The notes: generated by a model not told the origin, from the letters alone. Positions 33,162-62,620 are shown, numbered from the stretch's first letter. The stretch is DNA of 64,000 bases from Haloarchaeobius amylolyticus (GCF_026616195.1 NZ_JANHDH010000001.1:434001-498000), one strand, 5' to 3'. Program-made: numbers and translations.

Positions 33162-33172
33162 CTTCTTCGACG
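33148..33172 (+). repeat. Left attachment repeat of the integrated element
   Basis: A 25-base sequence, from the last T-loop base of tRNA-Lys to 11 bases beyond its 3' end (key part GCCCGGCCCGCTTCTTCGAC), recurs perfectly at 39213-39237. This is the classical outcome of site-specific integration into a tRNA 3' end by a tyrosine recombinase. Confidence 0.9.
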
Positions 33173-33584
33173 CGCGAAAAACATTCGCGTGTCTCAGCAG
33201 TTCTCCCGGGCAGTTACAAGTAATTGCACTCGATCCGGGAGTTAGTTGCACGGGTTTCCGACGGCGAGTCCGCACCCTGGAGTGGTCCGGGTCCACTACG
33301 TCTTGCGGTTCTACTCGTTCAAACGCACCCCACAGAGATAACGTTGCCGCAGGCTCGCCCGCGCGGGGCACCTGTTTCACCGGAGAACGCCCCCGATTCC
33401 AGCCTCCGACCCGCGACTGCCGCGACACTGACCCGAAAAGCATCGACCACCGAATGGGTCCGTAATCTGGCACCCCCAAGAGGTTAGTAAGTCGTCAGTG
33501 GCGATGTACCCGATCGGAGGGTTAGTCGCTCACAGAATTTTGGAAAATTGGAGCCTCGCGTATGGGCGTGTCTCTTAGCGTTAG
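33173..33584. other. Left end of the element, no gene
   Basis: About 410 bases without a convincing gene. Two related short motifs, GTAATTGCACTCG (about 33218-33230) and TTAGTTGCACGGG (about 33242-33254), lie near the left repeat and could be recombinase arm sites; this is only a suggestion. The rest shows nothing I can name. Confidence 0.4.
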
Positions 33585-34307: not shown

Positions 34308-34316
34308 ACACAACAT

Positions 34317-35365
34317 ATAGTTGGGGAATTATAAAAATCCACCGGGCAAAACAACCATAAGTTGTACACAAGGAACCCACAGTGATTTCTTCGATTATAT
34401 ATGTTCAGGCTGCTGCTTGCGCTGGGGTCTTCGAAATGATATATTCCATAGGACCAAATTGAGCAATCTCCCACGTTTGAGTACGCCGCCGTACCGAACC
34501 ACGTTCTGCATCCGCCCATCGGTGCCGTGATGGTCTCGTCTCTATACATTCCCATCCAGTAACTTGCCCGCCACCGACCGCGTGGGCACCCTGATTCATC
34601 GAAGAAGCGCCCTGCTCACTGCTCCACTGCCGTCGTTCACCTGTCCATCAGGGGTACTCTCAGTCCGCGGTCGCCCTGACCGGTTGGTCGGCCGGTGGGG
34701 GTCCCTTGACCATCGGAGAACCGCGACTGACTATGCCCACCACCTTCCGGGGTGTCGTCCAGACCTCTCCACAGTCTCACCGCCGTAGCCAACAACCCTC
34801 CGGCCTCATGCAACCTCTCCCCTTGGGGCTGTCGCGTCGGTCCATACCTGGGGTGGCGGGGCAGGCACTGCCGGGGTTAGCAGGTCGTCAGGCGGGGGGT
34901 TCTGAGGGGAAGGGTTGGCCACTCGCGGAAATACCGTTTTTTATCTCTACGTGTGGTGCGTGCGATACGGTATCACGGCGGGTCGAGCCAGGCGTAGCCC
35001 CTGTGATGTCCCCAAGATCGCGGCGGCGGGAAGTGCGAGGGGCGAGGTTCTTCGGTGAGTGCGACCTCCGGTCAGTCATTGTAGCGGCCGAGCCTGCTGG
35101 GCGCGGCCTTCGGGGCTGTCCGGGTCCCGGCCGCATGGACGGTCTGAATGAGCCCTGTGTGTACTCCGGCCCGGTCACCCCACCGAGAAGTCCTGTGGCA
35201 CGGAGAACCCGCCGAATCGGTCACCACTCCTCCTCGGAGTCTCGTAGGAGGGTGGTGCTCATGCCGCAGGCGTTCTCCGATGAACGCGACCTCCGGTCGG
35301 TCTGCATATCGCACTTTATCACACTGGATTCTTCCTAATGAGGAGAATTAGGCAAAATCAAGTGT
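34317..35365. other. Gene-poor region of the element, possible origin or RNA locus
   Basis: About 1050 bases with no believable gene. Features: AT-rich start (34325-34345 and 34395-34450); TTTTTTATC (34937-34945), a promoter-like box pointing right; an inverted pair ATACCGT (34931-34937)/ACGGTAT (34977-34983); two copies of CGACCTCCGGTC (about 35060 and 35287); and an imperfect hairpin ACCACTCCTCC/GGAGGGTGGT around 35223-35260. These would suit a replication origin or a structured RNA next to the helicase-like gene. Not proved. Confidence 0.4.
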
Positions 35366-37231
35366 TCACCGTGGAAGCACGATACCGTGGTCACCGACGA
35401 AGTTAACTCGGTAGTCAAACCAACAGAGGTCCTTCCCGCGCTTCTCCTGCTGGAGGTCTCCTCGCTGAGCAAGGTCTTTCAGTACCTTCCGCGTCTGGTC
35501 CTGTTTGACTGGATCGTCGGATAGCGTCTCGACTGAGTTTTGAATCTCCGTAGTCGTTCGAGACTCGCCCTGGTCGACGCCAAGCTCGTGTAATGCCTTG
35601 CACACCTGCATCAGTCCTACGCTGGAACTCGTGGGTACAATCCGCCACGATTCTCGTTCCACGTCCACCCAGGACGGGATTGCCCCGGTGTAGACGTAGA
35701 CTGTCGCGCCGTGCGACCCGGTGCCGTTGGCCCGGCTGAATCGCATAATCGCCTGGAGGACATCATACTCGCGGAAATGCTGTGAGACCTCGTTCCCGAT
35801 GGGGCCAAAATCGAGAGCCTTCCCGCCCCTGCGGTTTCCATCCTCCCCCTGTGCTGCCTTGACCGACTCACCCATCAACGCACACCAACGCTCAATATCG
35901 CGGTCGGACCGCTGTGGAGCACCGATTATCAGTCCCACATCACACTGGGCCAGTGCGTTCGTGCCTGTGACCATCCCGTAATGACGAACATTTTCTTCTG
36001 GAATGAAGCCATCAAGACCGCGCTTGAGAAGCTCGTTTCTGGCCTTCTTCGACGTTATCAATCCTACATTCTGATTGTGATTGCACACGTATTCGATGAC
36101 GGCCATATCTCGCCCCGGATTTATCCAGTATGAACTGAGATACGGCTCAATGTTGTCGGTCAGTTGCACGATGCGGAGTTGGAGGGTATCTCGCAGATAG
36201 ACGTTCGCATCATTCCGGGATAGCACCTGAATGACCTCTGTCTCAGGTCCGAGACAATATCGCCAGAGCACGGGAGATGCCGTACCATCAAGGCCGACCA
36301 CTGAGGCCGCAGTTGAGAGGTCTGGCTTGCTCGCCAACCAGATTTCACCGTCCTCTGGGTGCCTGGCCGCGGTGTAGCCGCCACCTATGTCAACCCACCT
36401 CCACCCGTTCTCCAGCCAGTCCCAGGAGAGGGCGGCTCGGGTGAGTTGTAGTCCATTGATGTGCCCGTGCTCGGTCCGGTGCCAGTTCGCTTGAGAAGGT
36501 AGGCAGGTACTCGACTGACGCCATGCTTTAATCTCGGCCTTATTCGACCGATTGTAGAATGCTGCCTCAAGCTGAGCATAGTTCTCGAAGGGGAGGGTAG
36601 GCTCGTTCTTCAGAAATTCAGACACAATCTGCTGATATTCATCGGAGTCAAATTTCTTGAGAAATGCGTCTCCGGGGAACTCGTCTATGAATACGACCCG
36701 GCCGTCGATGTACTCGGAGACATAGGCGTGCTGGTGGTTCCCGATAATCACGTCTACCGTCGCAACCTCCTCTGGGTCTCGGAATTGAGCCATGTACGGG
36801 CACTCCGGACCACAAGGTAGTTCCTCCCCAAAGACGGTCCGGGCATTCTCGTGGAGCCACTTGGCGGACCTCCCCCGGTTGTATTTGCGGTTGAATTTGG
36901 TTTTCCAGGCGTCTCCATGTTCGTTGTTTTTCCCTGCCGTGGGGCAGTCTCGGTAAAAGGACGGGATTTGGTAGTAGGTCAATCCCTCCTTTTCACATCC
37001 CGCGATGTGTTCTTCAGACAGGTCCGTGCGCGAGGTGAGAATGGTTCCGGGGACGCCAAGCTCGCTCAGGACACTGGTGGCGGACCAACTTTTTCCCATC
37101 GACGGGAGCGCGTTCACCACGACCGGGTGGGGCACCTGTGCGGCGTCGAGGACCGCCTGTCGGCACAGTTGACGGGCGTGATCGATGGTCGGAGTCGAGA
37201 CAAAGTTGGCACTGTAATTGATGGCAGTCAT
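35366..37231 (-). CDS. Helicase-like ATPase of the element, 621 aa
   Basis: A 621-residue protein resembling superfamily-2 helicase-type proteins of haloarchaeal plasmids and viruses. A Walker A-like loop NALPSMGKSWSATSV is near residues 40-54 (PSMGKS in place of GxGKT), Walker B GRVVFIDEFPG near 175-185, a Cys pair CGPECPYM near 140, a C-terminal helicase half (VGLITSKKARNELL; QAIMRFSRANG as a motif VI-like QxxxRxxR), and a winged-helix tail (residues 550-605, EIQNSVETLS and RKVLKDLAQRGDL). Likely the replication protein of the element. Start ATG 37231. Confidence 0.75.
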   Translation of the reverse strand: MTAINYSANFVSTPTIDHARQLCRQAVLDAAQVPHPVVVNALPSMGKSWSATSVLSELGVPGTILTSRTDLSEEHIAGCEKEGLTYYQIPSFYRDCPTAGKNNEHGDAWKTKFNRKYNRGRSAKWLHENARTVFGEELPCGPECPYMAQFRDPEEVATVDVIIGNHQHAYVSEYIDGRVVFIDEFPGDAFLKKFDSDEYQQIVSEFLKNEPTLPFENYAQLEAAFYNRSNKAEIKAWRQSSTCLPSQANWHRTEHGHINGLQLTRAALSWDWLENGWRWVDIGGGYTAARHPEDGEIWLASKPDLSTAASVVGLDGTASPVLWRYCLGPETEVIQVLSRNDANVYLRDTLQLRIVQLTDNIEPYLSSYWINPGRDMAVIEYVCNHNQNVGLITSKKARNELLKRGLDGFIPEENVRHYGMVTGTNALAQCDVGLIIGAPQRSDRDIERWCALMGESVKAAQGEDGNRRGGKALDFGPIGNEVSQHFREYDVLQAIMRFSRANGTGSHGATVYVYTGAIPSWVDVERESWRIVPTSSSVGLMQVCKALHELGVDQGESRTTTEIQNSVETLSDDPVKQDQTRKVLKDLAQRGDLQQEKRGKDLCWFDYRVNFVGDHGIVLPR

Positions 37232-37775
37232 AATATTCAGAGTGGAGGTGTAGCCGCTGAGACAGGTTGATTACGTTCGAAAATACGAGGAAACGCAGCA
37301 GAAGCTCAGCAGATTCTCCTCATATAAAAACATTGTTGAGAGAGAATTTAAACTTGCTGGTGAGGTTGGCACTCACCGAGCAGTCGCCGAGAATTGTGTC
37401 CCTCAGATACACTTATTCCCGGGAGGATATTAGAACTTGTCGCCGTGTTCAACATTAAGAAACACAGGCATTTGGTTCCAGACGGTGGGTTTGAATAAAG
37501 GCCCTTACAACGCGCCGGGACCAACCAGTGAATACCTTTTCACCCGTCGCCACTGGACGCACCCTGGGCGATTCTGAGGCTTCAGGTCACCTGACAGCAC
37601 CGGAAGTGTTCGCAAACCCCGCAGGCGTCTATTACACCGGATAACCCACCGGGTCGAACAGCACTCGACCACGGGTGGGTTGCTGGAGTCTTCGGATGCC
37701 GGTGTCAGTTTTCCAGTGTGGGAGGTGGTTTGTGTGGCGCGCTTCTTCGCTGAACCAGACGGTCCACGGGAGACG
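37232..37775. other. Gene-poor AT-rich region upstream of the helicase-like gene
   Basis: Contains a TATA candidate on the minus strand, TTTTTATATG (37320-37329), about 90 bases before the helicase-like ATG, and a perfect inverted repeat GGTGAG (37359-37364)/CTCACC (37372-37377) with 7-base spacer that could be an operator. The 37450-37775 part is more GC-rich and shows nothing recognisable. A small plus-strand frame at 37267-37458 is not convincing. Confidence 0.4.
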
Positions 37776-38030
37776 CTACAGGCGCTTCACATAGGCACGT
37801 CTGAGCAGTCGTTTGACCTCCTTGTCGTCGGTGTCGACGGCCTGCTTAATCTTTTCCAGCTCGTCCTCGGTGAAGGCTGCAAACCCACACTCTCGTTTCT
37901 CGTAGGTGTCCCAGAGCGTGATTGCCAATATCTTGTTCTCTATCACCCATTTTTCGCGGTCGTTGGACGCGGCGCGGTACTCGTCAATCAGTTGTTGCAC
38001 ACTGGTCGGGTTGAAGTCGTAGTTAGTCAT
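37776..38030 (-). CDS. Small element protein of unknown function, 84 aa
   Basis: An 84-residue, mostly helical, charged protein (VQQLIDEYRAASNDREKWVI; FTEDELEKIKQAVDTDDKEV; basic end KRLLRRAYVKRL). Its ATG overlaps the integrase stop by 8 bp, so it is translated with it. A small accessory factor such as an excision or directionality protein is conceivable because of its position next to the integrase, but no known family matches. Confidence 0.65.
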   Translation of the reverse strand: MTNYDFNPTSVQQLIDEYRAASNDREKWVIENKILAITLWDTYEKRECGFAAFTEDELEKIKQAVDTDDKEVKRLLRRAYVKRL

Positions 38031-39111
38031 AGTAGCCTCCGGTCTGCTGCTTGCTCTGGGCGCGGTCTGCCGCCGGTTCGAGGTCCCAATAGTGGGCGTA
38101 CTCGGTGGTCTTCTCCTCGATGGTCCGTTTGTCGTACACCTTGCGGATGATCTCGGGACTCACGTTCATCTGGAGCGAGACCGCCTCGATGGGGATGTCC
38201 CGCTTGCGTGCCTCGGTGATAGCGGCCTTCCGCATTCCGTGCGGGCTGCGGGACGATGGGCAGGTCGAGGCACTGTGTCTGTTCTGGTTCCACTCGCAGG
38301 TGGTCGGGTTTCTGTTGTGCGGGCACTCCCCACTGTAGACGCATGGCAGGGTCGCCCGGTAGATGATGTTACGGATTGTCTGGCGTGCTGGTCTCCCGAA
38401 CCGGGTCGTAATCAGGGGTTTCCGCCCGTGTTTGTCGGTGATGTCGTTCCGGTTCGTCTTGATGTAGTCATCGATGACCTCCGCGGCTGGCTTCGAGACG
38501 ACGATTGGTCGCTGGCCGTCTTCCCCGTTCTTGAGCGGGGTCTCGGTCTCCGGTCGGTGCTGGGCATTCAGGCGGCGTTCTCCGCTGTTCCAGTCGTCCA
38601 GGTCGAAGCTCCGTAGGGTGCCCGTCCGAACACCGGTCGCCCAGAGAATTTCGAGAACCACGTGGTCGAGGCTCGCGTACTCGTATTTGCGGTAGTGCTT
38701 GATGATTCGCTTGGCAATCTCGGGTTCGATGAAGGCATGGCGCACACCTTCTCTCGGAGCGAGTCTGGTGGGTTCGACGTACACGTGGAGTCTGGGTAGG
38801 ACGGCCTGGAACGCCTCACACTTGCGGATGAACACGCGCAGGGTGTGTAGCTGGGTGTTGAGGGTGACGTTGTTGAGGTCGCCATCGTCGCGCCGCCAGA
38901 TGGAGAACTTGGTGAAGTCTCTCGGGGTGAGGTCGTTGAGGTTGGTGATGTCCTGTTCGTCGCACCAGCGGATGAAGTGGCCGAGTCTGGAGCGGTGTGC
39001 GGTGAGGCTTGAGGCCGCGAGTTCGGTCTTCCGCGTGTCGAGGTAGAGGTCGACTGCCTCTCGCGGCGTGATCGGTTCCAGTTCGTAGCCGGTTCGGTGG
39101 TTTGATTCCAT
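38023..39111 (-). CDS. Tyrosine recombinase/integrase of the element
   Basis: A 362-residue XerC/D-like integrase. N-terminal SAM-like core-binding domain (residues 15-105, EAVDLYLDTRKTELAASSLT), then the catalytic domain: first Arg in ILWATGVRTGTLRSFDLDD, H-x-x-R in SPHGMRKAAI, and nucleophile Tyr in IIRKVYDKRTIEEK. Four Cys (CVYSGECP, TCEW, TCPS) between the two catalytic blocks may form a zinc knuckle. Located 100 bp inside the right repeat, so it very likely catalysed the integration into tRNA-Lys. The ATG at 39111 is preferred over one 17 codons upstream by the start of the folded region. Confidence 0.93.
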   Translation of the reverse strand: MESNHRTGYELEPITPREAVDLYLDTRKTELAASSLTAHRSRLGHFIRWCDEQDITNLNDLTPRDFTKFSIWRRDDGDLNNVTLNTQLHTLRVFIRKCEAFQAVLPRLHVYVEPTRLAPREGVRHAFIEPEIAKRIIKHYRKYEYASLDHVVLEILWATGVRTGTLRSFDLDDWNSGERRLNAQHRPETETPLKNGEDGQRPIVVSKPAAEVIDDYIKTNRNDITDKHGRKPLITTRFGRPARQTIRNIIYRATLPCVYSGECPHNRNPTTCEWNQNRHSASTCPSSRSPHGMRKAAITEARKRDIPIEAVSLQMNVSPEIIRKVYDKRTIEEKTTEYAHYWDLEPAADRAQSKQQTGGYYD

Positions 39112-50750: not shown

Positions 50751-50821
50751 CCTGTCGCCACGGTGGAAGACCGAGCGACGTAGGCGAACAGACTTTTGTT
50801 TCGTGCCGATTGAGCGACCGT

Positions 50822-51463
50822 ATGAAGCTGACACGACGGACGCTGCTGGGTAGTGCGAGTGCTGGAATCGCTGCCACCGCCGGGTGTCTGGGCATCCTCT
50901 CGGGCACGAGCGAGTTCACGGCCGACCAGGTCGCGGTCGACTCCCAGGTCGCGAGCGAGACGAACTACGTCAAGCAAGAGCCCAAAGAGCAGACCATCGA
51001 GAAGACGTTCTCGGCGGCGGGTCAGGAGAAGACCGTCAAGGTCGTCAACTGGATCACGCAGTACTACAAGACGCTCGACCTGCCCATCGCGTCGGACCAG
51101 AAGGCGGGCGTGTTCGCGCTCATCTCCTCGCCGAAGGTGGAGGTGCTCGGGCAGTCGTTCAACCCCCTGAAGGACTGGGACACGCGCAAGTTGGCGGCCC
51201 AGCTCCAGTCCCAGTACGAGGGCTTCTCGGTCGGCCAGGAGGTCGACCAGTTCGCCGTCCAGATACTCGGCTCGGCGAAGACCGTCAGCAAGTTCGAGGG
51301 GACGGCGACCCTCGGCGGGAGCGACGTCGACGTCTACATCCTGCTCTCGGGCGCGGTCGGGCACGAGTCTGACTTCGTCGTCCCGATGGCGGTCTACCCG
51401 CGCCAGATCGACGAGCAGGCGAACGTCCGCAAGTTGATGCGGAACCTCGTCCACCCGGCCTGA
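50822..51463 (+). CDS. Lipoprotein of the DUF6517 type
   Basis: A 213-residue Tat-type lipoprotein: LTRRTLLGSASAGIAATAGC, then an all-beta/mixed domain starting EFTADQVAVDSQVASETNYV, characteristic (from memory) of the DUF6517 family of haloarchaea. CTTTTGTT lies 27 bases before ATG 50822. It is convergent with the first pilin-like paralogue, whose stop is 21 bp away. Function unknown, likely external face of the membrane. Confidence 0.82.
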   Translation: MKLTRRTLLGSASAGIAATAGCLGILSGTSEFTADQVAVDSQVASETNYVKQEPKEQTIEKTFSAAGQEKTVKVVNWITQYYKTLDLPIASDQKAGVFALISSPKVEVLGQSFNPLKDWDTRKLAAQLQSQYEGFSVGQEVDQFAVQILGSAKTVSKFEGTATLGGSDVDVYILLSGAVGHESDFVVPMAVYPRQIDEQANVRKLMRNLVHPA

Positions 51464-51484: not shown

Positions 51485-53131
51485 TCAGTACTGCCGGAGG
51501 TCGACCACGTCGACGTGGACGCGGACGTAGGACACCCGCGAGTCGAACAGGTCGACCGGTATCACGTCGAGTTGCATGCCGACGAGCGACGCGTCGTAGG
51601 TGACAGTCGTGCTCTGTTTGACGGCGATGGGGCCGGCGACGATGGCACCCGTGACCGACGACGAGCCGGTCGCGACGCAGACGTCCCAGCCGACGCACTG
51701 GCTGGCCCCGGTCAGCTGTGCAGCGTTGGCCTCGCCGGGTGCCAGCGCGGGGGTGGCCCGCGGGGCGTAGATGACGCCCTCGAACTTGGTCGACCCGCCG
51801 GCGAACCCGACCTGCATGGTCGAGGGGCCGAACACCTGCGCGTGGCGGGCGTCGCCGTCGGTGACCAGGAACTCGCTGTTGCGCATCGCGAAGTTGCCGG
51901 CCGCGTACACCCGGAGGACGCCGTCGCCGCCCGCGCCGACGACCGTGACGTCCCCGCCGTCCAGGACCACGTCGCCCGGCACGACCAGCGTCACGTTGCC
52001 CGCCGACAGGTCGACGACGAGGGTCTCCCCGGTGAGCGAGAGGTCGCCGCTCCCGTCGACGAGGTAGGTGCCCGAGGCGAGGACCGTGGTCGCGTGGGCG
52101 GTCGGGTCGAACGACAGGACGCCGGCGGTGCCCGTGACTGCCTGACCCGAGACGGGCCCACAGCCGGGGTCACAGACCGTGACCGAGCGCGACTGGAAGG
52201 TGCCCGGCTCTGCCATCGTGGTGGCGCGGTCGACGGTCGCGGCGACGACCCAGTCGAGGCTCGACAGGCCGTCGTCGTGGTGCTCGGTCGTGGTGCCCGT
52301 GATGGCGCCCGCGCCCTGGACCGTGACGGCGCCGCTGGCGACGACCGACCCGTCGACGACCGAACTGCCGGTGCCGACGTAGATGTCGCCGTCGGCCCCA
52401 CCGGTGGCGACGGCAGCGTTGTCGAGTCGGGGCGTCGTCTGTGCGCCCGGGACGAAGGTCATCGAGACGGTCTGAGCAGGCGCATCGACGACGACCGCCG
52501 ACCCGGCGAACGACCGGAAATGCTCGGCCCAGACCGTGTAGTACGGCGATTCGACCGTGACGGTGGTGGGCGTCCCGTCGACGAACACCGTCCCGGACGC
52601 ACTCGCGAGTGGCTGTTCCTTCGCGACCGTCAGCGTCCCCGACGAGAGGTCCGAATCCCCGTCGAAGGCGATGACCGGCAACGAGAGCGTGTCGTCGCGG
52701 TAGGAGAGCTCCGGCGTCGAGAGGACGACCGTGCCCGCCTCGGTCACCTTCCACAGCCCGCCGCCCTCGTAGACGAACGTCGCCCGCGGGTGCTCGTAGA
52801 CCACCGCGGTCAGGTCCTCCTCGAGAAGCGTCTCCGACGGCGTCTCGACGGTTATCGTCCCGGTCGTGAGCGTGTACACCCCGGTCGCTCCCGCCGCGGG
52901 TAGCCGGACCGTCGTCGCGCCCGCCTCGGAGTGTGCGACGCTCTCGACCCGGTGCTCGAACGCGAGCATCGCGGCCTCTGCGGTGTTCGTCTCCGCGGTC
53001 GACCTGGTCTCCGTGAGGACCGTCCCCGCGAACACCGCGATGCCGGCGCTCGCGACGACCACCATCGTGATAACTAGTAACACACCGACGACTGTACTGA
53101 CCCCCCGTCCTGCTGGTACTTCTGCGTACAC
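51485..53131 (-). CDS. Pilin-like surface protein, most divergent paralogue (copy A)
   Basis: A 548-residue protein with a GTG start (MYAEVPAGRGVSTVVGVLLV). The RG/VSTVVGVLL junction matches an archaeal type IV prepilin peptidase site, with the hydrophobic helix at 11-37. The body has bactofilin-like short beta repeats (GDIYVGTGSSVVDGSVVASG, VTVQGAGAITG) and the shared motif CVGWDVC. It differs from the other four: extra Cys pair CDPGCG, no YAYQAGGVWRGTG (reads TFVYEGGGLW), and a different tail. TATAAATA (53229-53236) lies about 100 bases upstream, so the 5' leader would be about 75 nt. No known function. Confidence 0.82.
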   Translation of the reverse strand: MYAEVPAGRGVSTVVGVLLVITMVVVASAGIAVFAGTVLTETRSTAETNTAEAAMLAFEHRVESVAHSEAGATTVRLPAAGATGVYTLTTGTITVETPSETLLEEDLTAVVYEHPRATFVYEGGGLWKVTEAGTVVLSTPELSYRDDTLSLPVIAFDGDSDLSSGTLTVAKEQPLASASGTVFVDGTPTTVTVESPYYTVWAEHFRSFAGSAVVVDAPAQTVSMTFVPGAQTTPRLDNAAVATGGADGDIYVGTGSSVVDGSVVASGAVTVQGAGAITGTTTEHHDDGLSSLDWVVAATVDRATTMAEPGTFQSRSVTVCDPGCGPVSGQAVTGTAGVLSFDPTAHATTVLASGTYLVDGSGDLSLTGETLVVDLSAGNVTLVVPGDVVLDGGDVTVVGAGGDGVLRVYAAGNFAMRNSEFLVTDGDARHAQVFGPSTMQVGFAGGSTKFEGVIYAPRATPALAPGEANAAQLTGASQCVGWDVCVATGSSSVTGAIVAGPIAVKQSTTVTYDASLVGMQLDVIPVDLFDSRVSYVRVHVDVVDLRQY

Positions 53132-53228
53132 GTGACTCTCCCCGTTTCCCCTGTCTCCGTCTCGACGGCGTCACACTGTGTCGCGCCGCTCCCCTGGGAC
53201 AGGCCCAACCAATAGGACGTTAGATATG

Positions 53229-53236
53229 TATAAATA
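53229..53236 (-). promoter_or_regulatory. TATA element for copy A
   Basis: On the minus strand TATTTATA falls just inside the gap before the copy B stop. It predicts transcription from about 53205 toward the GTG at 53131, so copy A is likely not just a read-through product of copy B. Confidence 0.5.
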
Positions 53237-53253
53237 GTTATTCTAGCGGGGCT

Positions 53254-54882
53254 TCACGAGAGAGCGAGTCGTTCGTCCTCGTCACCGTCGTCGAGTTCGA
53301 CCTCGTGCAGCGAGACGTGGAGGAAGGTGATCGGCGGCGGGAACAGCTGGTCGTCGATCTGGAGCGACGGTTCGACGTTGGTCAGGTAGGGGTCGTGGGT
53401 GAACTCGGTGTTCTGTTCGAGCTTCGTCGGCCCGCCGATGATGGCGCCCACGAGGTTCGAACTCCCGGCGACGACGCAGACGTCCCAGCCTTCGCACTTG
53501 CTCTGGCTGGAGAGGGCCGCCTCGTTCTCCTCGTCGTCGTCGATCGCCGGGTAGTCCCGGGGCGCGTAGATGGTCCCGAAGAACTCCGTGTCGCTCCCGC
53601 CGGTGATGGCGACCTGCATGTCCGAGGTGCCGTAGATCTGCAGGCGCGAGGAGTTGTTGTCGTAGCCGGCCTGGGCGTTGTGCAGCCCGAAGTTCCCGGT
53701 CGTGTACACCCGGAAGGCGGCGTCGCCGGTCGGGTTGTTGATCTCGAGGTCCGCGTCGTCCAGCGAGATGTTCCCGTCGAGGACGAGCGTGACGTTCCCG
53801 TCGGAGAGGTCGACCCGGACGTCGTTGCTCGTCAGGTCGATGTCCTGGTCGTAGAAGTACGTGCTCCCGTTCTCCATCGTGATGTTGTTGCCGGGGTTGT
53901 TGGGGGTGAGGACCGAGCTGTTGTTCCGGGCCCCCTCCACCTTCCACTCGATGGCCGGGTCGAGTTCGTACAGGCCGGACTCGATGCCGGACTCGATGGA
54001 GCCGGTGATGCTGCCGGCCCCGCTCACGTTCACGTCACCCTCGGCCCGGACCGGCCCGTTGATGACCGCGTTCCCGCTCTGGACCGTGACGTCGCCCTCG
54101 TCACCGCCGGTCGCGTACACGCCCTGTCTGAAGTCGCCGTTCAGGATGGGCCGGCCGAGCTTGACCTTCACCGTCTCGTTGGCGTGGTCCACCGAGACCG
54201 CCCGCTCGCTGGTGTGCTTGCGCAGGTAGTCCGCCCACCCGCCGTAGTACTCGCTGTGGATCTTCACCGTCACGAGCTCGCCCTCGACGTAGCCGACGCG
54301 GTTGATGGGCGACATCGTCCGGTTCTTGCGGATGTTGACCACGCCCGAGTCGATGCGCTCCTCGCCCGAGATGATGGGTATCGGGAGGTTCAGCGTGCCG
54401 TCGCGGTAGTAGAACTGCGGCGGCGACACCATGACCGCGTCGTCACCGGTGCCGCGCCAGACCCCACCGGCCTGGTAGGCGTACACCGTCTCGCCCCTGG
54501 TGTACTCGATGGAGCCGAACGACTCGTTCGCGATGTCGATGTTCTGTGTGTAGACCTCGATGCGCCCGGTGTCCTTGCGGTGGATGGCTCCCTCGCGGGT
54601 CCGGATGTCGAAGTTCGTCTGGTCGCTCGACCCCTCGCCGAGCGCCACCGAGTTGACGTTCTGCTCCAGCTCGACGAACACCTGCTCTATCCGGACGTCC
54701 TCGGTGTCCTCTCTGGTCTCCTCGAGCGTGAGCCCGCCGACCACGACGATGGAGACCGCGCCGATCGTTACGACGGCTACGAGCAACACGATCGCCAGCA
54801 GTGCGCTCTGCCCTCGGGCTGTGCCGTCCTGTGTCCCCCGACACGACGTACCGTCTCCCCCCCTCGTGGAGAGACGTCTCAT
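53254..54882 (-). CDS. Pilin-like surface protein paralogue (copy B)
   Basis: A 542-residue protein. Basic leader (MRRLSTRGGDGTSC), then ARG/QSALLAIVLLVAVVTIG, a class III (pilin) style signal with Q at +1 and helix at about 25-50. The body shares VYAYQAGGVWRGTG, QGVYATGGDEGDVTVQSG, INGPVRAEGDVNVSGAGSIT, VTLVLDGNISL, CEGWDVC and the tail PPPITFLHVSLHEVELDDGD. ATG 54882 is 27 bases after TTATAAATA (54905-54913), which decides it against the GTG six codons upstream. Probably a surface or filament subunit. Confidence 0.85.
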   Translation of the reverse strand: MRRLSTRGGDGTSCRGTQDGTARGQSALLAIVLLVAVVTIGAVSIVVVGGLTLEETREDTEDVRIEQVFVELEQNVNSVALGEGSSDQTNFDIRTREGAIHRKDTGRIEVYTQNIDIANESFGSIEYTRGETVYAYQAGGVWRGTGDDAVMVSPPQFYYRDGTLNLPIPIISGEERIDSGVVNIRKNRTMSPINRVGYVEGELVTVKIHSEYYGGWADYLRKHTSERAVSVDHANETVKVKLGRPILNGDFRQGVYATGGDEGDVTVQSGNAVINGPVRAEGDVNVSGAGSITGSIESGIESGLYELDPAIEWKVEGARNNSSVLTPNNPGNNITMENGSTYFYDQDIDLTSNDVRVDLSDGNVTLVLDGNISLDDADLEINNPTGDAAFRVYTTGNFGLHNAQAGYDNNSSRLQIYGTSDMQVAITGGSDTEFFGTIYAPRDYPAIDDDEENEAALSSQSKCEGWDVCVVAGSSNLVGAIIGGPTKLEQNTEFTHDPYLTNVEPSLQIDDQLFPPPITFLHVSLHEVELDDGDEDERLALS

Positions 54883-54904
54883 ACACTGCTGAGTAGTCAC
54901 GGGA

Positions 54905-54913
54905 TTATAAATA
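54905..54913 (-). promoter_or_regulatory. TATA element for copy B
   Basis: Minus-strand TATTTATAA is centred 27 bases before ATG 54882, giving a leaderless start. Confidence 0.6.
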
Positions 54914-55085
54914 AGAATTGTAAGGTCAGCCGTACGAAATCAGTTGTTCTTTCTGATGGTTGTATAGTACTAACTGAATAATCTCAGAACAAATCCCTGA
55001 TAGGGCCCAAGAACTAGTCTAGAGCGTTTCAGGCGTCGACTGTCAGCAAACGGAACTCTGGCCGCAAGTTTCAATAGTACAACTA

Positions 55086-56813
55086 CTACTGGTGTCTCGG
55101 CGCGAACATGAACGTTGTGGCCCTGCATCCCCGGGGAACCGCGACCTCTCCGACGAGCAGGGACGTCCGCGCATCGACCCCGTGTGCTGCGTGGTCGAGG
55201 ACGACCCGCCCGGCCGTGTCACCGTCCTCGAGGGCGACGTCGTGGACCGAGACGTGCAGGAAGGTGATCGCGGGCGGGAAGAGGCTGCGTTCGAGCTCCA
55301 GTGACGGCTCCTGGTCCACGAGCGCGGTGTCGTAGACCAGCCCCGTGCTCTGGCCGACGTAGGTCGACCCGCCGACGATGGCACCGACGACGTTGCTGTT
55401 CCCCTGCGCGAGGCAGGTATCCCAGCCGTCGCACTCGCTGGCGGTCCCGACGACGCCCTCGTTCGGCTGGCCGGGTGCGAGGGCAGTCTCCTCGCGCGGT
55501 GCGTAGATGAGGCCGTAGAACTCCGTGCTACCGCCGGTGAACCCGACCTGCATGTCCGAGGTACCGTACACCTGGACGTACTCGGGGTGGCCGCTGACGC
55601 CAACGATACCGTTGTGGAGGCCGAAGTTGCCGGTCGTGTACACCCTGAAGGCCGTGCCTGCCGACCCGTTGGTCACGTGGATGTCGCCGCCGTCGAACGA
55701 GAGGTTCCCGTCGACCAGCAGCGTCACGTTGCCGCCAGCGAGGTCGACGTCGACGTCCTCGCCGGTCGAGACCACGTCGGCGTCGACGTAGTACGTCTGC
55801 CCCCCGTCGAGCGTCTCGGTGAAGGGGTCGGGTCGCGGGACCGATGCGTTCCGCTCCGCGTCTGCGACGAGTCGTTCGACGACCGGGTCGATCTCGGTCA
55901 GCGACGCGTCGACGTTCGACGCGACCGTCCCGTCGATGGAGGTGCTCGACTTCGTCTGGACGTCGCCCTCGGCGACCACCGGGCCGTCGATACCCCCGGC
56001 ACCGCCGTCCGCATCCACCGTCACGTTGCCGCCGGCACCACCGGTGGCGTACACACCGTGGTCGAAGCTCCCCTTCGCCAGGGGCCGACCGAGGCTGAGG
56101 ACCACGGTCTGGTTCGCGTGGTCGACCGAGACGGCGACGTCGTTGGTCCGCTCGCGGAGGTACTCGGCCCAGCCGGCGTAGTACTCGCTCTGTATCTCGA
56201 CGGTCACCAGCCGCCCCTCGACGTAGCCGACCTGGTTGACGGACGACCTGGTCCCGCGCTTGGTCGCCGTGACGGGACCGTCGGTGAGCTGCCCGTCGCC
56301 GGTGACGATGGGGACCTGCACGTTCAGCGTCCCCTCGCGGTAGGAGAACTGCGGCGGGGTCACCATCGTCGCGTTCGCGCCGGTGCCGCGCCAGACGCCG
56401 CCGGCCTGGTACGCGTAGACGTCGTCGCCGCGGCGGTACTCGACCGCCCCGAGCGAGACGTTCGCGATCTCGGTCCCACCAGAGACGACCCTGAGGCGGC
56501 CATCGTCGCGGCGCTGTATCGTGGCGTCGCTGCGGTCCACGTCGAAGTCGACCTGGTCGACCCGGCCCTCACCCAGGGCGACGCTATCGACGACGCGGTC
56601 GAACTCGCGGAAGGCGAACTCGACGCGCGTGTCTTCTGCCGCTGCTTGCTGCTGCTGGACCGTGACGTGCCCGGCGACGAGGACGCTGACGACCCCGGCG
56701 GTGACGAGCAGGGTCAGCAGGGCCACGGCGATGGCCTCCGACTCACCACGACTGCACATCGCTGCCGGCCACCGTCGCCCTCGCCCGTCGGGCCTCGGAC
56801 TACGACGTGTCAT
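55086..56813 (-). CDS. Pilin-like surface protein paralogue (copy C)
   Basis: A 575-residue protein, longest of the five. Basic leader MTRRSPRPDGRGRRWPAAMC, then SRG/ESEAIAVALLTLLVTAG (glutamate at +1, helix about 26-46). Shared blocks: VYAYQAGGVWRGTG, HGVYATGGAGGNVTVDADGG, VVAEGDVQTKSSTSIDGTV, VTLLVDGNLSFDGGDIHV, GFTGGSTEFYGLIYAPREET, CDGWDTC and PPAITFLHVSVHDVALEDGD. A C-terminal extension of about 40 residues (from HAAHGVDARTSLLVGEVAVP) is unique to this copy. No clear TATA upstream of the ATG at 56813 (weak GGATATCG at 56838). Confidence 0.83.
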   Translation of the reverse strand: MTRRSPRPDGRGRRWPAAMCSRGESEAIAVALLTLLVTAGVVSVLVAGHVTVQQQQAAAEDTRVEFAFREFDRVVDSVALGEGRVDQVDFDVDRSDATIQRRDDGRLRVVSGGTEIANVSLGAVEYRRGDDVYAYQAGGVWRGTGANATMVTPPQFSYREGTLNVQVPIVTGDGQLTDGPVTATKRGTRSSVNQVGYVEGRLVTVEIQSEYYAGWAEYLRERTNDVAVSVDHANQTVVLSLGRPLAKGSFDHGVYATGGAGGNVTVDADGGAGGIDGPVVAEGDVQTKSSTSIDGTVASNVDASLTEIDPVVERLVADAERNASVPRPDPFTETLDGGQTYYVDADVVSTGEDVDVDLAGGNVTLLVDGNLSFDGGDIHVTNGSAGTAFRVYTTGNFGLHNGIVGVSGHPEYVQVYGTSDMQVGFTGGSTEFYGLIYAPREETALAPGQPNEGVVGTASECDGWDTCLAQGNSNVVGAIVGGSTYVGQSTGLVYDTALVDQEPSLELERSLFPPAITFLHVSVHDVALEDGDTAGRVVLDHAAHGVDARTSLLVGEVAVPRGCRATTFMFAPRHQ

Positions 56814-57016
56814 CACAGAGTAAGAAGGCTCCCGCGGGGATATCGCGAGAGGCTATCCTATGTGCGTCCGTGGCCGCGGCACTGGGAAGACACTCGTCTC
56901 CTCTCCGGTGTAAACCGTGTTCTGAGACCACCTCTCTTCCGTCTCCGGGCGATAAGGCTTCACCGATAGCTACCTAAGGAGATTGGTAGCAGAACGTAAC
57001 ATGTCCCGCCGGGTGC

Positions 57017-58654
57017 TCAGGCGGCCTCGACGACGATGCGCTCGTCCTCGTCACCGTCGTCGAGCCGGACGTCGTGGACCGAGACGTGCAGGAACGTGAT
57101 CGGCGGCGGGAACAGGCCGTCCTCGAGCTGGAGCGTGGGCTCGGTCCCGACGAGGCTCGGGTCGTGGGTCAGGCCCGTGCTCGACCCGACGTAGGTCGGG
57201 CCGGCGACGATGGCGCCCTCGATGTTGCTGTTCCCCGTCGCGATGCAGACGTCCCAGCCGTCGCACTTGGTCTTGGTGTCGATGGTCGCGACGTTGGTCT
57301 CGCCGGGGTCCAGTGCCGGCTCGTCCCGCGGCGCGTAGATGGTGCCGTAGAAGGCGGTGCTGCCCCCGGTGAACCCGACCTGCATGTCCGAGGTGCCGTA
57401 CACCTGGAGGTGCTGCGCCTTGCCGGTGATGCCGCCCTGCCCGTTCTTCATGCCGAAGTGGCCCGTGGTGTAGACGCGGAACGCGGTCCCCGGACTCGGG
57501 TTGTCTATCTCGATGTCGCCGTCCTCCAGCGCGATGCTCCCGTTGACGATGAGCGTGACGTTCCCGCCCGAGAGGTCGACCTCGATGTCGTCACCGGTCG
57601 AGACGATGTCGGAGTCGACGTAGTAGGTCTTGCCCTGGTCCAGTTCCTCGGTCAGGGGGTTCGGCCGCGGCATACTCGGGTCGTCCTTCGCGGCCTCGAC
57701 CTTGCGCTCGATGGCGGGGTCGATCTCGGTCAGGTCCGCGTTCACGTTCGGCTCCTCGGAGCCGTTGATGGAGTTGTTCTTCTTCTTGTCGATGTCACCC
57801 TCGGCCTTCACCGGGCCCGTGATGCCCCCGGCGTTCCCGTTCGCGTCGACCTTCACGTCGCCCTCGGCGCCGCCGGTCGCGTACACGCCCTGCGCGAAGT
57901 TCCCGTCGATGAGGGGTCGCCCGAGCTTGACGATGACCGTCTCGTTCGCCTCGTCGACCGAGACGGCGACGTCGTTGGTCCGCTCGCGGAGGTACTCGGC
58001 CCAGCCGGCGTAGTACTCGCTCTGTATCTCGACGGTGACGAGCTGCCCTTCAACGTAGCCGACCCGGTTGACGGGCGACCGCGTGCCGTTCTTTCGCACC
58101 TTCACGACGCCGTTCGAGAGCCGCTCCTCCCCGGAGACCACCGGGATGGGGAGGTTCAGGGTGCCGTCGCGGTAGTGGAACTGCGGCGCTGCCACCATGA
58201 CGGTCTCGTTGCCGGTGCCGCGCCAGACGCCGCCGGCCTGGTACGCGTACACCGTCTCGCCCTTGCGGTACTCGATGGAGCCGAAGGACTGGTTCGCGAG
58301 TTCGCTCCCGTTCGCGGTCACCGTGATGCGACCTGTGTTCTCCCGGTGGACGGTCCCGTCGCGCGACCCGAGCGCGAAGTCGACCTGGTCCGAGCCGTCG
58401 TCGCTCAGCGCGACCGAGTCGATGGTCCGGTCGAGTTCGAGGAACGTGTACTCGATGCGCTTGGTCTCGCTCTCTTGCTGTTGCTCCTCGAGCGTCAGCC
58501 CACCGACGACGAGGATCGAGACGACGCCGATGGTGACGAGACCGATGAGCAGCACCATCGCTACCACTGCTGTCTGACTGCGGTCCCCACCGCGTGCCTG
58601 TCCGGTCACCTGTCCCCCCCGGGTGCCCACCCCTGTGGATGAGGGACGTATCAT
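57017..58654 (-). CDS. Pilin-like surface protein paralogue (copy D)
   Basis: A 545-residue protein. Leader MIRPSSTGVGTRGGQVTGQA, then RGGDRSQTAVVAMVLLIGLV with the hydrophobic helix at about 27-52; here the R-G-x-S is replaced by R-S-Q-T. Shared blocks: VYAYQAGGVWRGTG, YYAGWAEYLRERTNDVAVSV (identical in copy C), QGVYATGGAEGDVKVDANGN, CDGWDVC and PPPITFLHVSVHDVRLDDGD. It is closest to copy C in the middle region. TAAATAGAAAT (58680-58690, read on the other strand) is about 27-32 bases upstream of ATG 58654, supporting this start over an upstream reading. Confidence 0.85.
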   Translation of the reverse strand: MIRPSSTGVGTRGGQVTGQARGGDRSQTAVVAMVLLIGLVTIGVVSILVVGGLTLEEQQQESETKRIEYTFLELDRTIDSVALSDDGSDQVDFALGSRDGTVHRENTGRITVTANGSELANQSFGSIEYRKGETVYAYQAGGVWRGTGNETVMVAAPQFHYRDGTLNLPIPVVSGEERLSNGVVKVRKNGTRSPVNRVGYVEGQLVTVEIQSEYYAGWAEYLRERTNDVAVSVDEANETVIVKLGRPLIDGNFAQGVYATGGAEGDVKVDANGNAGGITGPVKAEGDIDKKKNNSINGSEEPNVNADLTEIDPAIERKVEAAKDDPSMPRPNPLTEELDQGKTYYVDSDIVSTGDDIEVDLSGGNVTLIVNGSIALEDGDIEIDNPSPGTAFRVYTTGHFGMKNGQGGITGKAQHLQVYGTSDMQVGFTGGSTAFYGTIYAPRDEPALDPGETNVATIDTKTKCDGWDVCIATGNSNIEGAIVAGPTYVGSSTGLTHDPSLVGTEPTLQLEDGLFPPPITFLHVSVHDVRLDDGDEDERIVVEAA

Positions 58655-58998
58655 CGTGAAAGGAATTGCACCCGACACGTAAATAGAAATCGAATTTTTT
58701 ACTATATTTCCTGAATGAGACACCCGTTGCTGGAGTAAACTCAATACACAATTTCAGAAAGAAATCCTCAGGAAATCTTTGAAAGGCCCTAAGAGACGTT
58801 CAAGGCGTGCTGAATGTTGCCGGTAGATGGCCGCAACATTCTTTCGTCCGTGTCGGCCGAGACCTGACTGGCAGTCGAACCGTCGTGACCTGTCCGACGT
58901 ACTCGGTGGAACTGGTCAATCGAAGAACATCCTCGTAACAGGAGGAAACCCGGTCGTCGCTGACTGCGACCGACGAGAAGAGATGCTGCCCGACGCCC
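58655..58998. other. Intergenic region between copies D and E
   Basis: About 344 bases. The first 40 hold the copy D promoter, followed by an AT-rich tract (58695-58715). No gene is convincing in the remainder (58740-58998). The stretch 58735-58820 weakly resembles 54958-55040 in the B/C gap (shared AAATC, AGG-x-CC and AAGA-like words), possibly an old duplication. Confidence 0.4.
58680..58690 (-). promoter_or_regulatory. TATA element for copy D
   Basis: Minus-strand ATTTCTATTTA lies about 30 bases before ATG 58654 in an AT-rich tract, as for the other copies. Confidence 0.55.
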
Positions 58999-60675
58999 TC
59001 AGTGCGCCACCGCCGCGCCAGCGTGGTCGGCGACGACGATGCGTTCGTTATCGTCCTCACCGTCCTCCAGTTCCACCTCGTGGACCGAGACGTGGAGGAA
59101 CGTGATCGGCGGCGGGAACAGGCCGTCTTCGAGCTGGAGGTCCGGGTCGAGCGTCGAGAGGCTGGAGTCGTAGGTCATCTCGGTGCTCTGGCCGAGTTTG
59201 GTCGGGCCGCCGACGATGGCGCCGTGGATCTCAGAGCCACCCTGGATGATGCAGACGTCCCAGCCATCGCAGGTGTCGGCATTCTTGTAGCGGTCGTAGA
59301 CAGGATTCGCCTCGTTCGAGTCGAGTGCCGGCTCGTCGCGGGGTGCGTAGATGGTCCCGTAGAACTCCGTGTTCGACCCGCCGGTGATGTAGACGGTGGT
59401 CTCGGAGGTCCCGTATATCTGCAGGCGTTCCGGCTCGTCCTCCTCGCCGGCCACGCTCTTTTTCATCCCGTAGTCGCCAGTCATGTAGACCTTGAACGAG
59501 GCGTTGCCCGTCTCGTTGTTGATGTTCAGGTCCTCCTTTTCGAGGTAGAGACTTCCGTTCAGGATAAGCGTCACGTCACCGTTCCCGAGGTCGACGTCGA
59601 TGGACTGACTGTCAGCGACGACGTCCGAATCCGCGAAGTAGGTCTTTCCGTCCTTCAGTTCGGTCGTCGCCGGGTCGACTGTCGTGATGGAGCTACTGTT
59701 CTTCGCCGTGTCGACCTTCGTCTCGATCACCATGTCGATCTCCGAGAGGTCCGACTCGACGTTCTGTTGCGTCGTCCCGGTGATGTTCCCACTTCCCCCC
59801 GTGGAGATGTTCCCTTCCGCCCGGACCGGCCCGTTTATCTGTGGGCTGCCGTTGTCGACGGTCACATCCCCATCGGCACCGCCGGTCGCGTACACCCCCT
59901 GGGTGAAGTTGGTGTCCGCCATCGGCCGCCCGAGCTTGACCAGCACCGTCTCGTTCGCGTCGTCGACCGAGACGGCGACGTTGTTGGTGCGGTCCCGGAG
60001 GTACTGGGCCCAGCCGTTGTAGTACTTGCTCTGGATCTCGACGGTCACGAGCTCGCCCTCGACGTAGCCCACGTTGTTCACCGGGGCCATCGTCTGGTTC
60101 TTGGATATCTCGACGACGCCGGAGGAGAGCTGTTGTTCGCCACTGACCGTCGGAATTGGCAGGTTCAGCGTGCCGTCGCGGTAGTGGAACTGCGGCGAGG
60201 CGACCATGCTGGCGTCGCCACCGGTGCCACGCCAGACGCCGCCAGCCTGGTAGGCGTAGACGCTGCCGTCCCGCCTGTACTCTATCGAGCCGAAGGACTC
60301 GTTCGCTATCTCTGTCCCGTTGGCGGAGACGACGATGCGGCCGGTGTTCTTCCGGAAGACGGCGCCCTCTTTCGTTCTGATGTCGAAGTCCACCTGCCGG
60401 GTCGCACCCCCACCGAGGGCGACGGAGTCGACGCCCTCGTCGAGCTGGACGAACACCTGCTCGATGCGCTGGTCCTCGGCATCGTCTTTCGATTCCTGCA
60501 GGGCGACACCACCGAGGACGACGATGGACACCGAGCCGATGGCGACGATGCCCACGAGGAGGACGACGGCGAGGATGGCGGACTGCCCTCGCTCGTCCCG
60601 GTGTGTCACACCACGAGTGCCGTCGGGTCCGCTGCCCCCAGCAGCCGGACCGTGGGTCGGGAAAGCACCTCTCAT
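58999..60675 (-). CDS. Pilin-like surface protein paralogue (copy E)
   Basis: A 558-residue protein, first of the five in transcription order. Leader MRGAFPTHGPAAGGSGPDGT, then ERG/QSAILAVVLLVGIVAIG (cleavage between residues 30 and 31 if it follows the prepilin rule; helix 31-55). Shared: VYAYQAGGVWRGTG, QGVYATGGADGDVTVDNGSP, NGPVRAEGNISTGGSGNITG, VTLILNGSLYLEKEDLNIN, CDGWDVC and PPPITFLHVSVHEVELEDGE. Many Asn-x-Ser/Thr sequons could be glycosylated on the surface. CTATATG (about 60702-60708) is centred near 27-30 bases before ATG 60675. Confidence 0.85.
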   Translation of the reverse strand: MRGAFPTHGPAAGGSGPDGTRGVTHRDERGQSAILAVVLLVGIVAIGSVSIVVLGGVALQESKDDAEDQRIEQVFVQLDEGVDSVALGGGATRQVDFDIRTKEGAVFRKNTGRIVVSANGTEIANESFGSIEYRRDGSVYAYQAGGVWRGTGGDASMVASPQFHYRDGTLNLPIPTVSGEQQLSSGVVEISKNQTMAPVNNVGYVEGELVTVEIQSKYYNGWAQYLRDRTNNVAVSVDDANETVLVKLGRPMADTNFTQGVYATGGADGDVTVDNGSPQINGPVRAEGNISTGGSGNITGTTQQNVESDLSEIDMVIETKVDTAKNSSSITTVDPATTELKDGKTYFADSDVVADSQSIDVDLGNGDVTLILNGSLYLEKEDLNINNETGNASFKVYMTGDYGMKKSVAGEEDEPERLQIYGTSETTVYITGGSNTEFYGTIYAPRDEPALDSNEANPVYDRYKNADTCDGWDVCIIQGGSEIHGAIVGGPTKLGQSTEMTYDSSLSTLDPDLQLEDGLFPPPITFLHVSVHEVELEDGEDDNERIVVADHAGAAVAH

Positions 60676-60700
60676 CACATCGAGACTGGCAGGGACCGAA

Positions 60701-60887: not shown

Positions 60888-61736
60888 TCAGCGCGGTTGC
60901 CACTCGGGCTCTCTGTCCTCGAAGAACGCGTCGATGCCCTCGTTCTTGTCCTCGTTGGCGAACAGCAGCGCGAAGAGTTCGGCCTCGTACTCGATACCCT
61001 CTTCGAGGCCCATCCGCGAGCCCGCCTTGACGGCCTTCTTGGCGATCTCGAGTGCGAGCGGGGACTTCGCGGCCATCTGGCCGGCGAGGTCGTAGACGCG
61101 CTCGTCAAGGTCCTCCTCGGGGTAGACCTCGTCGACGAGCCCGATGTCGTTGGCCTCCGCGGCGTCGATGAGTTCGCCAGAGAGGATGAGCCGCATGGCC
61201 TGACCCTCGCCGACGAGGCGGGGGAGGCGCTGGGTCGCGCCACCGCCGGGCATGATACCGAGGTTGATCTCGGGCTGGCCGAGCTTCGAGCCTTCCTGTG
61301 CGATGCGCACGTCACAGCCGAGCGCGAGTTCGGAGCCGCCGCCGAGGCAGTGCCCGTTGATGCGGGCGATGACCGGTTTCTCCAGGTCGTCGACGTACTC
61401 GTACACGCGGGGGCGCTTGGAGGCGTCGCGCTGTTCGATGGCGTCGCGCTCGCGCAGTTCCGTCACGTCCGCGCCCGCGACGAACGAACTCGACTCGTCG
61501 GAACCGGTGAGGACGACCACGCGGATGGCGGAGTCGGCCTCGACCGCGTCGAGCACCGACTTGAGTTCGCGCCGGAGCTGGGCGTTCAGCGCGTTCCGGG
61601 AGTCCGGCCGGTTCAGGACGACGGTCCCGACGCCCTCGGCGTGGTCACCGACCGTGACGTCCACGAGGTCGCACTCCTCGGCGGCCGCGACGGCGTCGGC
61701 ACCGTCCGACTCCGCGTCGGTCGCGTCCTCACCCAT
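60888..61736 (-). CDS. Enoyl-CoA hydratase/isomerase family
   Basis: A 282-residue crotonase-fold enzyme of fatty acid or acyl-CoA breakdown. After a 25-residue acidic N-terminal extension, the oxyanion-hole block VLNRPDSRNALNAQL and FVAGADVTEL appear, then the two catalytic Glu positions: GGGSELALGCD and GQPEINLGIMPGGGATQRL. It hydrates 2-enoyl-CoA to 3-hydroxyacyl-CoA. Its ATG overlaps the stop of the dehydrogenase gene (TGATG), so both steps of beta-oxidation are made from one message. Confidence 0.94.
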   Translation of the reverse strand: MGEDATDAESDGADAVAAAEECDLVDVTVGDHAEGVGTVVLNRPDSRNALNAQLRRELKSVLDAVEADSAIRVVVLTGSDESSSFVAGADVTELRERDAIEQRDASKRPRVYEYVDDLEKPVIARINGHCLGGGSELALGCDVRIAQEGSKLGQPEINLGIMPGGGATQRLPRLVGEGQAMRLILSGELIDAAEANDIGLVDEVYPEEDLDERVYDLAGQMAAKSPLALEIAKKAVKAGSRMGLEEGIEYEAELFALLFANEDKNEGIDAFFEDREPEWQPR

Positions 61737-62620
61737 CAGTCGTCACCCCAGTCGCCGCTCGTGCCGACGATCTCGCCGTCCTCCCAGACGTAGAAGCCCT
61801 CGCCGGTCTTCTTGCCGAGCTTGCCGGCGCGAACCTTCTGCTTGAGCAGTTGCGGCGGGCGGAAGCGCTCGCCCAGCTCTTCGCGCAGGTACTCGAGGAT
61901 GTCGAGACGCACGTCGAGCCCGACCACGTCACCCAGCTCGATGGGGCCCATCGGGTGGTTGTACCCGAGTTCCATCGCGGTGTCGATGTCCTGCGGGGAG
62001 GCGACGCCCTCCTCCAGCATCCGGATGGCCTCCACGCCGAGGGAGACGCCGAGACGCGAGGACGCGAAGCCGGCGGAGTCCCGGACCGTCACGGGTTCGC
62101 GGTCGATACCGGAGACGAACTCCTGGGCGAATTCGACGGTGTCCTCGCTGGCCTGTTCCGGCACGACGATCTCGACCAGTTGCATGATGTGGACCGGGTT
62201 GAAGAAGTGCAGTCCGACGGCGCGCTGGTCGTGGTCGAGCGCGCTGGCGATCTCCGTGACCGAGAGCGAGGAGGTGTTCGAGGCGATGACGGTGTCGTCG
62301 CCCGCGAGTGCCTCCACGTCCTCGAAGGTCTGCTTCTTCAGGTCCATCTTCTCCGGGACCGCCTCGACGACGATGTCCGCGCCCGGGACCGCCTCGTCGA
62401 GGTCGACCGCGGTATCGATGCGGTCGAGCGTCTCCTCCATCTCGGCTTCGGTGACCTTGCCGCGGTCGACCCCGCCCTGGAGGTTCTTGCGGATGCCCTC
62501 TATCCCGTTCTCGACGTACTCCTGTTCGATGTCGCGCATCGTGACGGAGTGGCCGGCCATGGCGCAGACCTGTGTGATTCCGTGCCCCATCGTGCCTGCT
62601 CCGAGTACACAGACTTTCAT
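61736..62620 (-). CDS. 3-hydroxyacyl-CoA (3-hydroxybutyryl-CoA) dehydrogenase
   Basis: A 294-residue NAD-dependent dehydrogenase. Rossmann motif VCVLGAGTMGHGI at residues 3-15, catalytic His region GLHFFNPVHIMQLVEIV, SNTSSLSVTEIA, and C-terminal helical dimer domain with ELGYNHPMGPIELGDVVGLD and DGEIVGTS. Oxidises 3-hydroxyacyl-CoA to 3-ketoacyl-CoA. ATG 62620 is chosen as the first start before the GxGxxG fold; an upstream in-frame ATG adds 17 residues with no family match. It is upstream of and coupled to the enoyl-CoA hydratase gene. Confidence 0.95.
   Translation of the reverse strand: MKVCVLGAGTMGHGITQVCAMAGHSVTMRDIEQEYVENGIEGIRKNLQGGVDRGKVTEAEMEETLDRIDTAVDLDEAVPGADIVVEAVPEKMDLKKQTFEDVEALAGDDTVIASNTSSLSVTEIASALDHDQRAVGLHFFNPVHIMQLVEIVVPEQASEDTVEFAQEFVSGIDREPVTVRDSAGFASSRLGVSLGVEAIRMLEEGVASPQDIDTAMELGYNHPMGPIELGDVVGLDVRLDILEYLREELGERFRPPQLLKQKVRAGKLGKKTGEGFYVWEDGEIVGTSGDWGDD

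Follow-up and report, generated by a model that had tools for sequence, protein, structure and literature searches.

A tandem array of putative modular minor pilins with a predicted beta-solenoid in Haloarchaeobius amylolyticus

Why a haloarchaeal genome should hold, side by side, five large proteins with a pilin-type N-terminus and no pilus assembly genes next to them is the question raised by a locus of Haloarchaeobius amylolyticus. The stretch of DNA analyzed, here called the window, comprises 64,000 nucleotides (bases 434001-498000 of a 2.4 Mb contig; genome 4.6 Mb), and in it five adjacent open reading frames (ORFs) on the minus strand occupy positions 51485-60678, with intergenic gaps of ∼120-250 bases. 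An earlier note on this DNA had proposed five tandem paralogues of a large, acidic, pilin-like protein, which might serve as a filament, a surface-layer-like or an adhesion system. On balance, it is considered probable that the five proteins, numbered P1-P5 from low to high coordinate, are modular minor pilins, which are assembled in trans and expose adhesive solenoids, diversified among the copies, at the tip of the pilus.

51485-53131, minus strand: P1, 548 amino acids (aa) as listed; DUF7289 and DUF7305, divergent array member
53254-54900, minus strand: P2, 548 aa as listed; DUF7289 and DUF7305 pilin, orthologue in genome G002 77% identical
55086-56816, minus strand: P3, 576 aa as listed; DUF7289 and DUF7305, sister of P4, no copy in G002
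57017-58744, minus strand: P4, 575 aa as listed; DUF7289 and DUF7305 pilin, orthologue in G002 87% identical
58999-60678, minus strand: P5, 559 aa as listed; DUF7289 and DUF7305, the protein modelled

Counted from the likely starts, the proteins are slightly shorter than listed; for P4, the likely start is an ATG near 58654. The all-against-all alignment suggested by the earlier note revealed a common core: the proteins can be aligned end to end, with 34-36% identity between P1 and the others and 51-61% among P2-P5. In all five, PF23960 (DUF7289) was matched N-terminally with 70-100 bits (E 3e-19 to 2e-28), followed by PF23981 (DUF7305) with 102-111 bits (E 6e-29 to 1e-31); the Pfam gathering cut-off is 27 for either family, and this order of the two was required. 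The ratio of nonsynonymous to synonymous substitution (dN/dS) of P2, P4 and P5, compared with the orthologues of the closest relative, was 0.06-0.30 per module, and P1-P5 are therefore regarded as real genes. Together, the family scores and dN/dS rule out a chance resemblance of five ORFs.

The proteins are acidic, as had been noted, with net charges of -37 to -51. Each of P2-P5 holds 8-12 N-glycosylation sequons where 2.5-4.5 are expected (2-3 times as many), while P1 is not enriched. A CxGWDxC cysteine pair, which suits an extracellular protein, lies in the solenoid of all five. TATA-like stretches, read by eye ∼25-30 bases upstream of P2, P4 and P5, would fit separate transcription units.

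The N-terminus is that of a type IV pilin, with a basic leader, a [KR][GA] cut site (P4 is an exception) and a hydrophobic helix. An RG-[QVE]-S motif resembling a processing site is present in four of the five proteins, and P1 scored 24.5 against Pilin_N, just below the cut-off of 25.2. A weak Pilin_N match at 21324-21449 of the window was set aside; it falls well within the interior of a 421 aa protein whose start is lipoprotein-like.

The structure of P5 was predicted with AlphaFold2 from an alignment of 18 sequences, with a mean predicted local distance difference test (pLDDT) score of 83.3. As the earlier note had anticipated, the model shows one N-terminal helix and is otherwise mostly beta: in mature numbering, a helix at residues 2-57 is followed by a beta body to ∼218, short strands to ∼471 and a 15-residue strand at 494-508. 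From this, the following parts of P5 were delimited:

59920-60585, minus strand: pilin module (mature residues 1-222), helix 2-57 and beta body, from the model and DUF7289
59122-59919, minus strand: predicted beta-solenoid (mature residues ∼223-488) with an ice-binding-protein fold and the CxGWDxC pair, from the model and the fold match
59050-59121, minus strand: last long strand (mature residues ∼489-512, strand 494-508), probably the returning last strand of the pilin module

When the P5 model was compared with the PDB using Foldseek, all eight matches with E < 0.001 were ice-binding proteins (E 2.3e-5 to 9.7e-4), with 6eio ranking best at 2.3e-5 and FfIBP 4nu2 seventh. PDB sequence searches with A1 and A2 gave chance matches only (BplB, E 0.25; VgrG, 1.6). 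In DUF7289 proteins lacking a solenoid, the profile has one extra final strand past the point where the solenoid begins in the window proteins, and the model of such a protein has the same order of elements minus the solenoid. A 15-position profile of this final strand, built from solenoid-free DUF7289 pilins, was scanned over the array proteins after residue 220. It scored highest at the C-terminal strand of P1 (11.3), P2 (7.0), P4 (10.2) and P5 (12.3), against a control mean of -1.4 (SD 4.5), and in P3 it scored 10.4 at the equivalent site preceding the longer tail of this protein. The last strand of P5 is similar to the one that closes DUF7289 pilins without a solenoid, and the solenoid therefore appears to sit, as an insertion, between the penultimate and the final strand of the pilin module. 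According to the model, the large size of the proteins is explained by this inserted solenoid and not by a new type of filament subunit.

The origin of the array could be traced within the genus. Four other Haloarchaeobius genomes (G001, G003, G004 and G005) have one copy each between the same neighbours, with cysS and a DUF6517-like gene at one end and enoyl-CoA hydratase-like and hydroxyacyl-CoA dehydrogenase-like genes at the opposite end. The closest relative (G002), with flanking proteins ∼90% identical, has three copies, orthologous to P2, P4 and P5. In the tree, P2-P5 cluster with the three proteins of G002, next to the genes of the single-copy genomes; P2-P5 are an expansion in place. 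Because P3 branches before the split of P4 and its orthologue, it was probably lost in G002. P1 falls outside the P2-P5 group with strong support. Tandem paralogy as first proposed thus stands for P2-P5, but not for P1, for which an origin as one of five equal local duplicates is rejected by its placement in this tree and by the trees of its modules. The P1 pilin module groups with lineages of which several lie beside pilus clusters (97/96), while its solenoid groups with the Haloarchaeobius set plus two relatives from outside the genus, G283 and G011 (93/94). Approximately unbiased (AU) tests on the placement of P1 gave 0.045 for the pilin module and 0.028 for the solenoid, the latter value concerning the whole group including G283 and G011. 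This suggests that P1 is possibly chimeric, with a pilin module and a solenoid of different origin, a reading weakened by the long branch and unusual composition of P1 in the pilin tree.

The features flanking the array in the window are:

50810-51463, plus strand: DUF6517 protein with a lipoprotein-like start, conserved array neighbour and marker of the site
60888-62620, minus strand: enoyl-CoA hydratase-like and 3-hydroxyacyl-CoA dehydrogenase-like genes, the syntenic other flank, named by sequence recognition without a library scan

The DUF6517 gene accompanies the array and cysS across the genus and also in the metagenome-assembled genome QS_8_69_26 (L040).

Within the orthologous pairs, the two modules of P5 have changed to different extents, with 90% identity in the pilin module and 61% in the solenoid. 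The corresponding values are 84 and 72% for P2 and 86 and 89% for P4, and the comparison of P4 with its orthologue rules out accelerated solenoid evolution as a general rule. In every orthologue comparison and for all modules dN/dS was below 0.31, which indicates constraint; positive selection is not demonstrated. P3 and P4 share 28 consecutive identical codons in the pilin body (shuffled mean 9.0, maximum 25; p = 0.0005), a tract that likely reflects gene conversion.

The search of haloarchaeal genomes that the earlier note had called for showed that the family is widespread. DUF7289 was found in 57 and DUF7305 in 48 of 61 relatives, and in a class-wide sample DUF7305 was present in 192 of 292 haloarchaeal genomes. 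The six DUF7305 copies of this genome are the most among the 292, the next highest number being five. Besides the three copies of the closest relative, tandem sets of five (G019) and three (G015, G022 and G039) were seen; since both the family and its tandem duplication occur elsewhere, neither is unique to this genome. PF23960 also matches in Haloferax volcanii and Methanosarcina acetivorans. The array proteins are large, as stated in the earlier note, but less exceptional than it had supposed, because DUF7305 occurs in about two-thirds of the sampled genomes and minor pilins of 250-550 aa are already noted in passages of Makarova et al. (2016, PMC4858521). A second conserved site of these genes, next to adenylate kinase-like and cytochrome oxidase-like genes, was seen in other members of the organism's family (L091, L092, L093, L094 and L085), where they are often paired as a form of 480-520 aa and a larger one.

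Outside the organism's own family, the array proteins have homologues next to pilus machinery. One of them (L088) adjoins a DUF7289 pilin, DUF7266, DUF7261, DUF7288, DUF7287, a TadC-like T2SSF protein and a PilB3-like T2SSE ATPase. As tallied by hand from the family matches, DUF7305 was located within 10 kb of DUF7288, a pilin of the pilus clusters, in 10 of 15 order-level genomes from other families in which both occur. The genome studied here, queried one family at a time, has eight T2SSE ATPases and a gene of the prepilin peptidase family, and two DUF7289 pilin clusters with TadC are present on another of its contigs (L098 and L097). Separate small pilins (DUF7266, DUF7287 and DUF7288) are encoded with the machinery.

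Putatively adhesive modules were identified in several paralogues. The sixth DUF7305 gene of the genome (L096 8200-11913; contig C1, ∼92200-95900) encodes more than 1200 aa with DUF7289, DUF7305 and VWA and holds a MIDAS-like DxSxS motif. It keeps its place in genus mates, and those tested also carry VWA; it is a candidate for a VWA adhesin at the tip of pili in haloarchaea. Companions of 740-850 aa in L046, L091 and L092 carry VWA as well, and in the VWA-bearing paralogues this domain follows the solenoid; in a Pfam scan it was found in none of the five array members. On a bacterial minor pilin, VWA is a demonstrated adhesin module (PMC8179133). The L088 homologue passes the Pfam ice-binding-like adhesive model PF20597. 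In two further relatives (L090 and L085), a bactofilin-like solenoid stretch is added between the pilin module and DUF7305, indicating that the cargo can be lengthened.

For the function of the array we infer cleavage, assembly, tip position, adhesion and alternative use of the copies. The N-terminal helix would insert each protein in the membrane, the prepilin peptidase of the genome would cut it and one of the PilB/TadC-type machines encoded elsewhere would assemble it in trans; passages of PMC4858521 describe Haloferax PilA pilins as acting with machinery encoded in trans. The DUF7289 pilin module would be the carrier and the ice-binding-protein-like DUF7305 beta-solenoid the presented cargo, which seems too bulky for the shaft and is thus most likely displayed at the tip, possibly binding surfaces, other cells or polymers. 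Having grown in place from one ancestral gene, the array would offer alternative tips in which the carrier is conserved and the solenoids diverge, the latter being reshuffled by gene conversion. A further step would be a diversification system in which the cargo repertoire is exchanged by gene conversion and module swapping, varying what the pili recognize (e.g., mating partners or viruses), perhaps with one copy expressed at a time. The P3/P4 tract, the possible chimera P1 and the drift of the P5 solenoid point in this direction, and the proposal is quite doubtful as a whole.

Several observations weigh against modular minor pilins. Within the own family, 31 genomes contain DUF7305 as well as DUF7288, and in none were the two linked. 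As the earlier note had observed, the array has no assembly machinery beside it: no T2SSE-family secretion ATPase was found within the window, the nearest on this contig being ∼400 kb away. At the cut site P4 has RSQT, not RGQS, and so lacks the usual G or A, and the RS is kept in its orthologue. The P5 model was built on a mere 18 sequences, and a fold search of the PDB with the solenoid-free pilin model returned nothing significant (best E 0.03), so that the term pilin rests on the N-terminus, the family scores and the gene linkage. Faster change of the solenoid is clear in P5, weaker in P2 and absent in P4.

The missing linkage in the own family and the missing assembly genes would also suit membrane-anchored surface proteins, in which a pilin-type helix tethers each solenoid singly, without a filament, as an adhesin or an S-layer (surface layer)-associated protein, and so would the size, acidity and sequons of the proteins. 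This explanation is taken seriously and held to be unlikely, given the homologues beside PilB/TadC clusters in other families and a carrier module that is common to the small cluster-encoded pilins and under purifying selection. That each gene encodes the main subunit of a distinct filament is hardly probable at all: the several paralogues have separate upstream regions and other filaments with large pilin subunits are known (PMC11046646), but the machinery is encoded with its own small pilins. Among the filament, S-layer-like and adhesion roles first considered, the evidence favours an adhesion module on a minor pilin, because of the ice-binding-like solenoid, the VWA-bearing paralogues and the homologues beside PilB/TadC; the hint of an S-layer consists solely of size, acidity and sequons, and no new type of filament subunit is needed.

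The closest likeness in build is to ComZ of Thermus thermophilus, in which the solenoid is placed between the last pilin strand and the one before it and can be superposed on FfIBP 4NU2, and for which a tip position was argued on steric grounds (PMC6561018). For the array proteins, the corresponding insertion was judged from the element order and the last-strand profile, not from coordinates. ComZ differs in being a bacterial, DNA-binding protein encoded by a single gene, with a solenoid of ∼380 residues (PMC6561018). Shared topology and solenoid fold might suggest that the array encodes tip DNA receptors for DNA uptake or cell mating; this is very improbable in view of the strongly negative charge of P1-P5, the lack of a sequence match to ComZ, its absence from the top 50 fold matches and the possibility that the common build is convergent. 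ComZ was not returned by profile searches of PDB sequences, and therefore the array proteins are not filed in its family; the resemblance in the model is a likeness of build, not a demonstrated kinship.

Modular minor pilins have further counterparts. arCOG02911, described in passages of Makarova et al. (2016, PMC4858521) as a duplication-prone, all-beta minor pilin of 250-550 aa, shares with the array proteins the pilin signal, approximate size, tendency to duplicate, ATPase/TadC loci and occurrence across euryarchaeal type IV pilus systems. It is very probably the DUF7289 family, as phyletic spread, size and gene context agree. The same passages differ in suggesting an Ig-like fold and make no mention of solenoid insertion, VWA variants or such an array expansion. 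PilB of Streptococcus sanguinis and other modular pilins likewise graft a functional module on a pilin carrier, which in PilB is a VWA, as in the haloarchaeal paralogues; there the module is appended (PMC8179133), whereas P1-P5 lack VWA and seem to hold the solenoid as an insertion. With the DUF3494 ice-binding proteins (6eio, 4nu2 and others) the solenoid shares its fold only, at 11-16% identity, and ice binding is not expected in a halophile.

In a literature search, no paper naming DUF7289 or DUF7305 was found, and a search of titles and abstracts for DUF3494 and pilin returned nothing on archaeal pilins with that fold. As far as the literature searched shows, the solenoid assignment, the predicted insertion topology, the VWA paralogues as putative tip adhesins and the series of one, three and five copies, in which the cargo changes on a conserved carrier, are new. 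DUF7289 and DUF7305 are unexplained families that occur together in most haloarchaea, and a carrier with a solenoid cargo would give a testable role to many unnamed surface proteins. It also suggests that the strategy of tip modules, familiar from the modular pilins of bacteria, is used by archaea. Should the ComZ-like topology prove correct, insertion of a solenoid before the last pilin strand arose twice or is very old. The Haloarchaeobius genomes with one, three or five copies at one site are a natural experiment in pilus tip diversification.

Elsewhere in the window, positions 33088-39111 probably hold a small integrated element. A tRNA-Lys gene (33088-33162) is followed by a stretch of low GC content (∼55-61%, against 64-74% around it), at the end of which lies a phage-type integrase gene (38023-39111); the genes in between match no family and look poorly coding.

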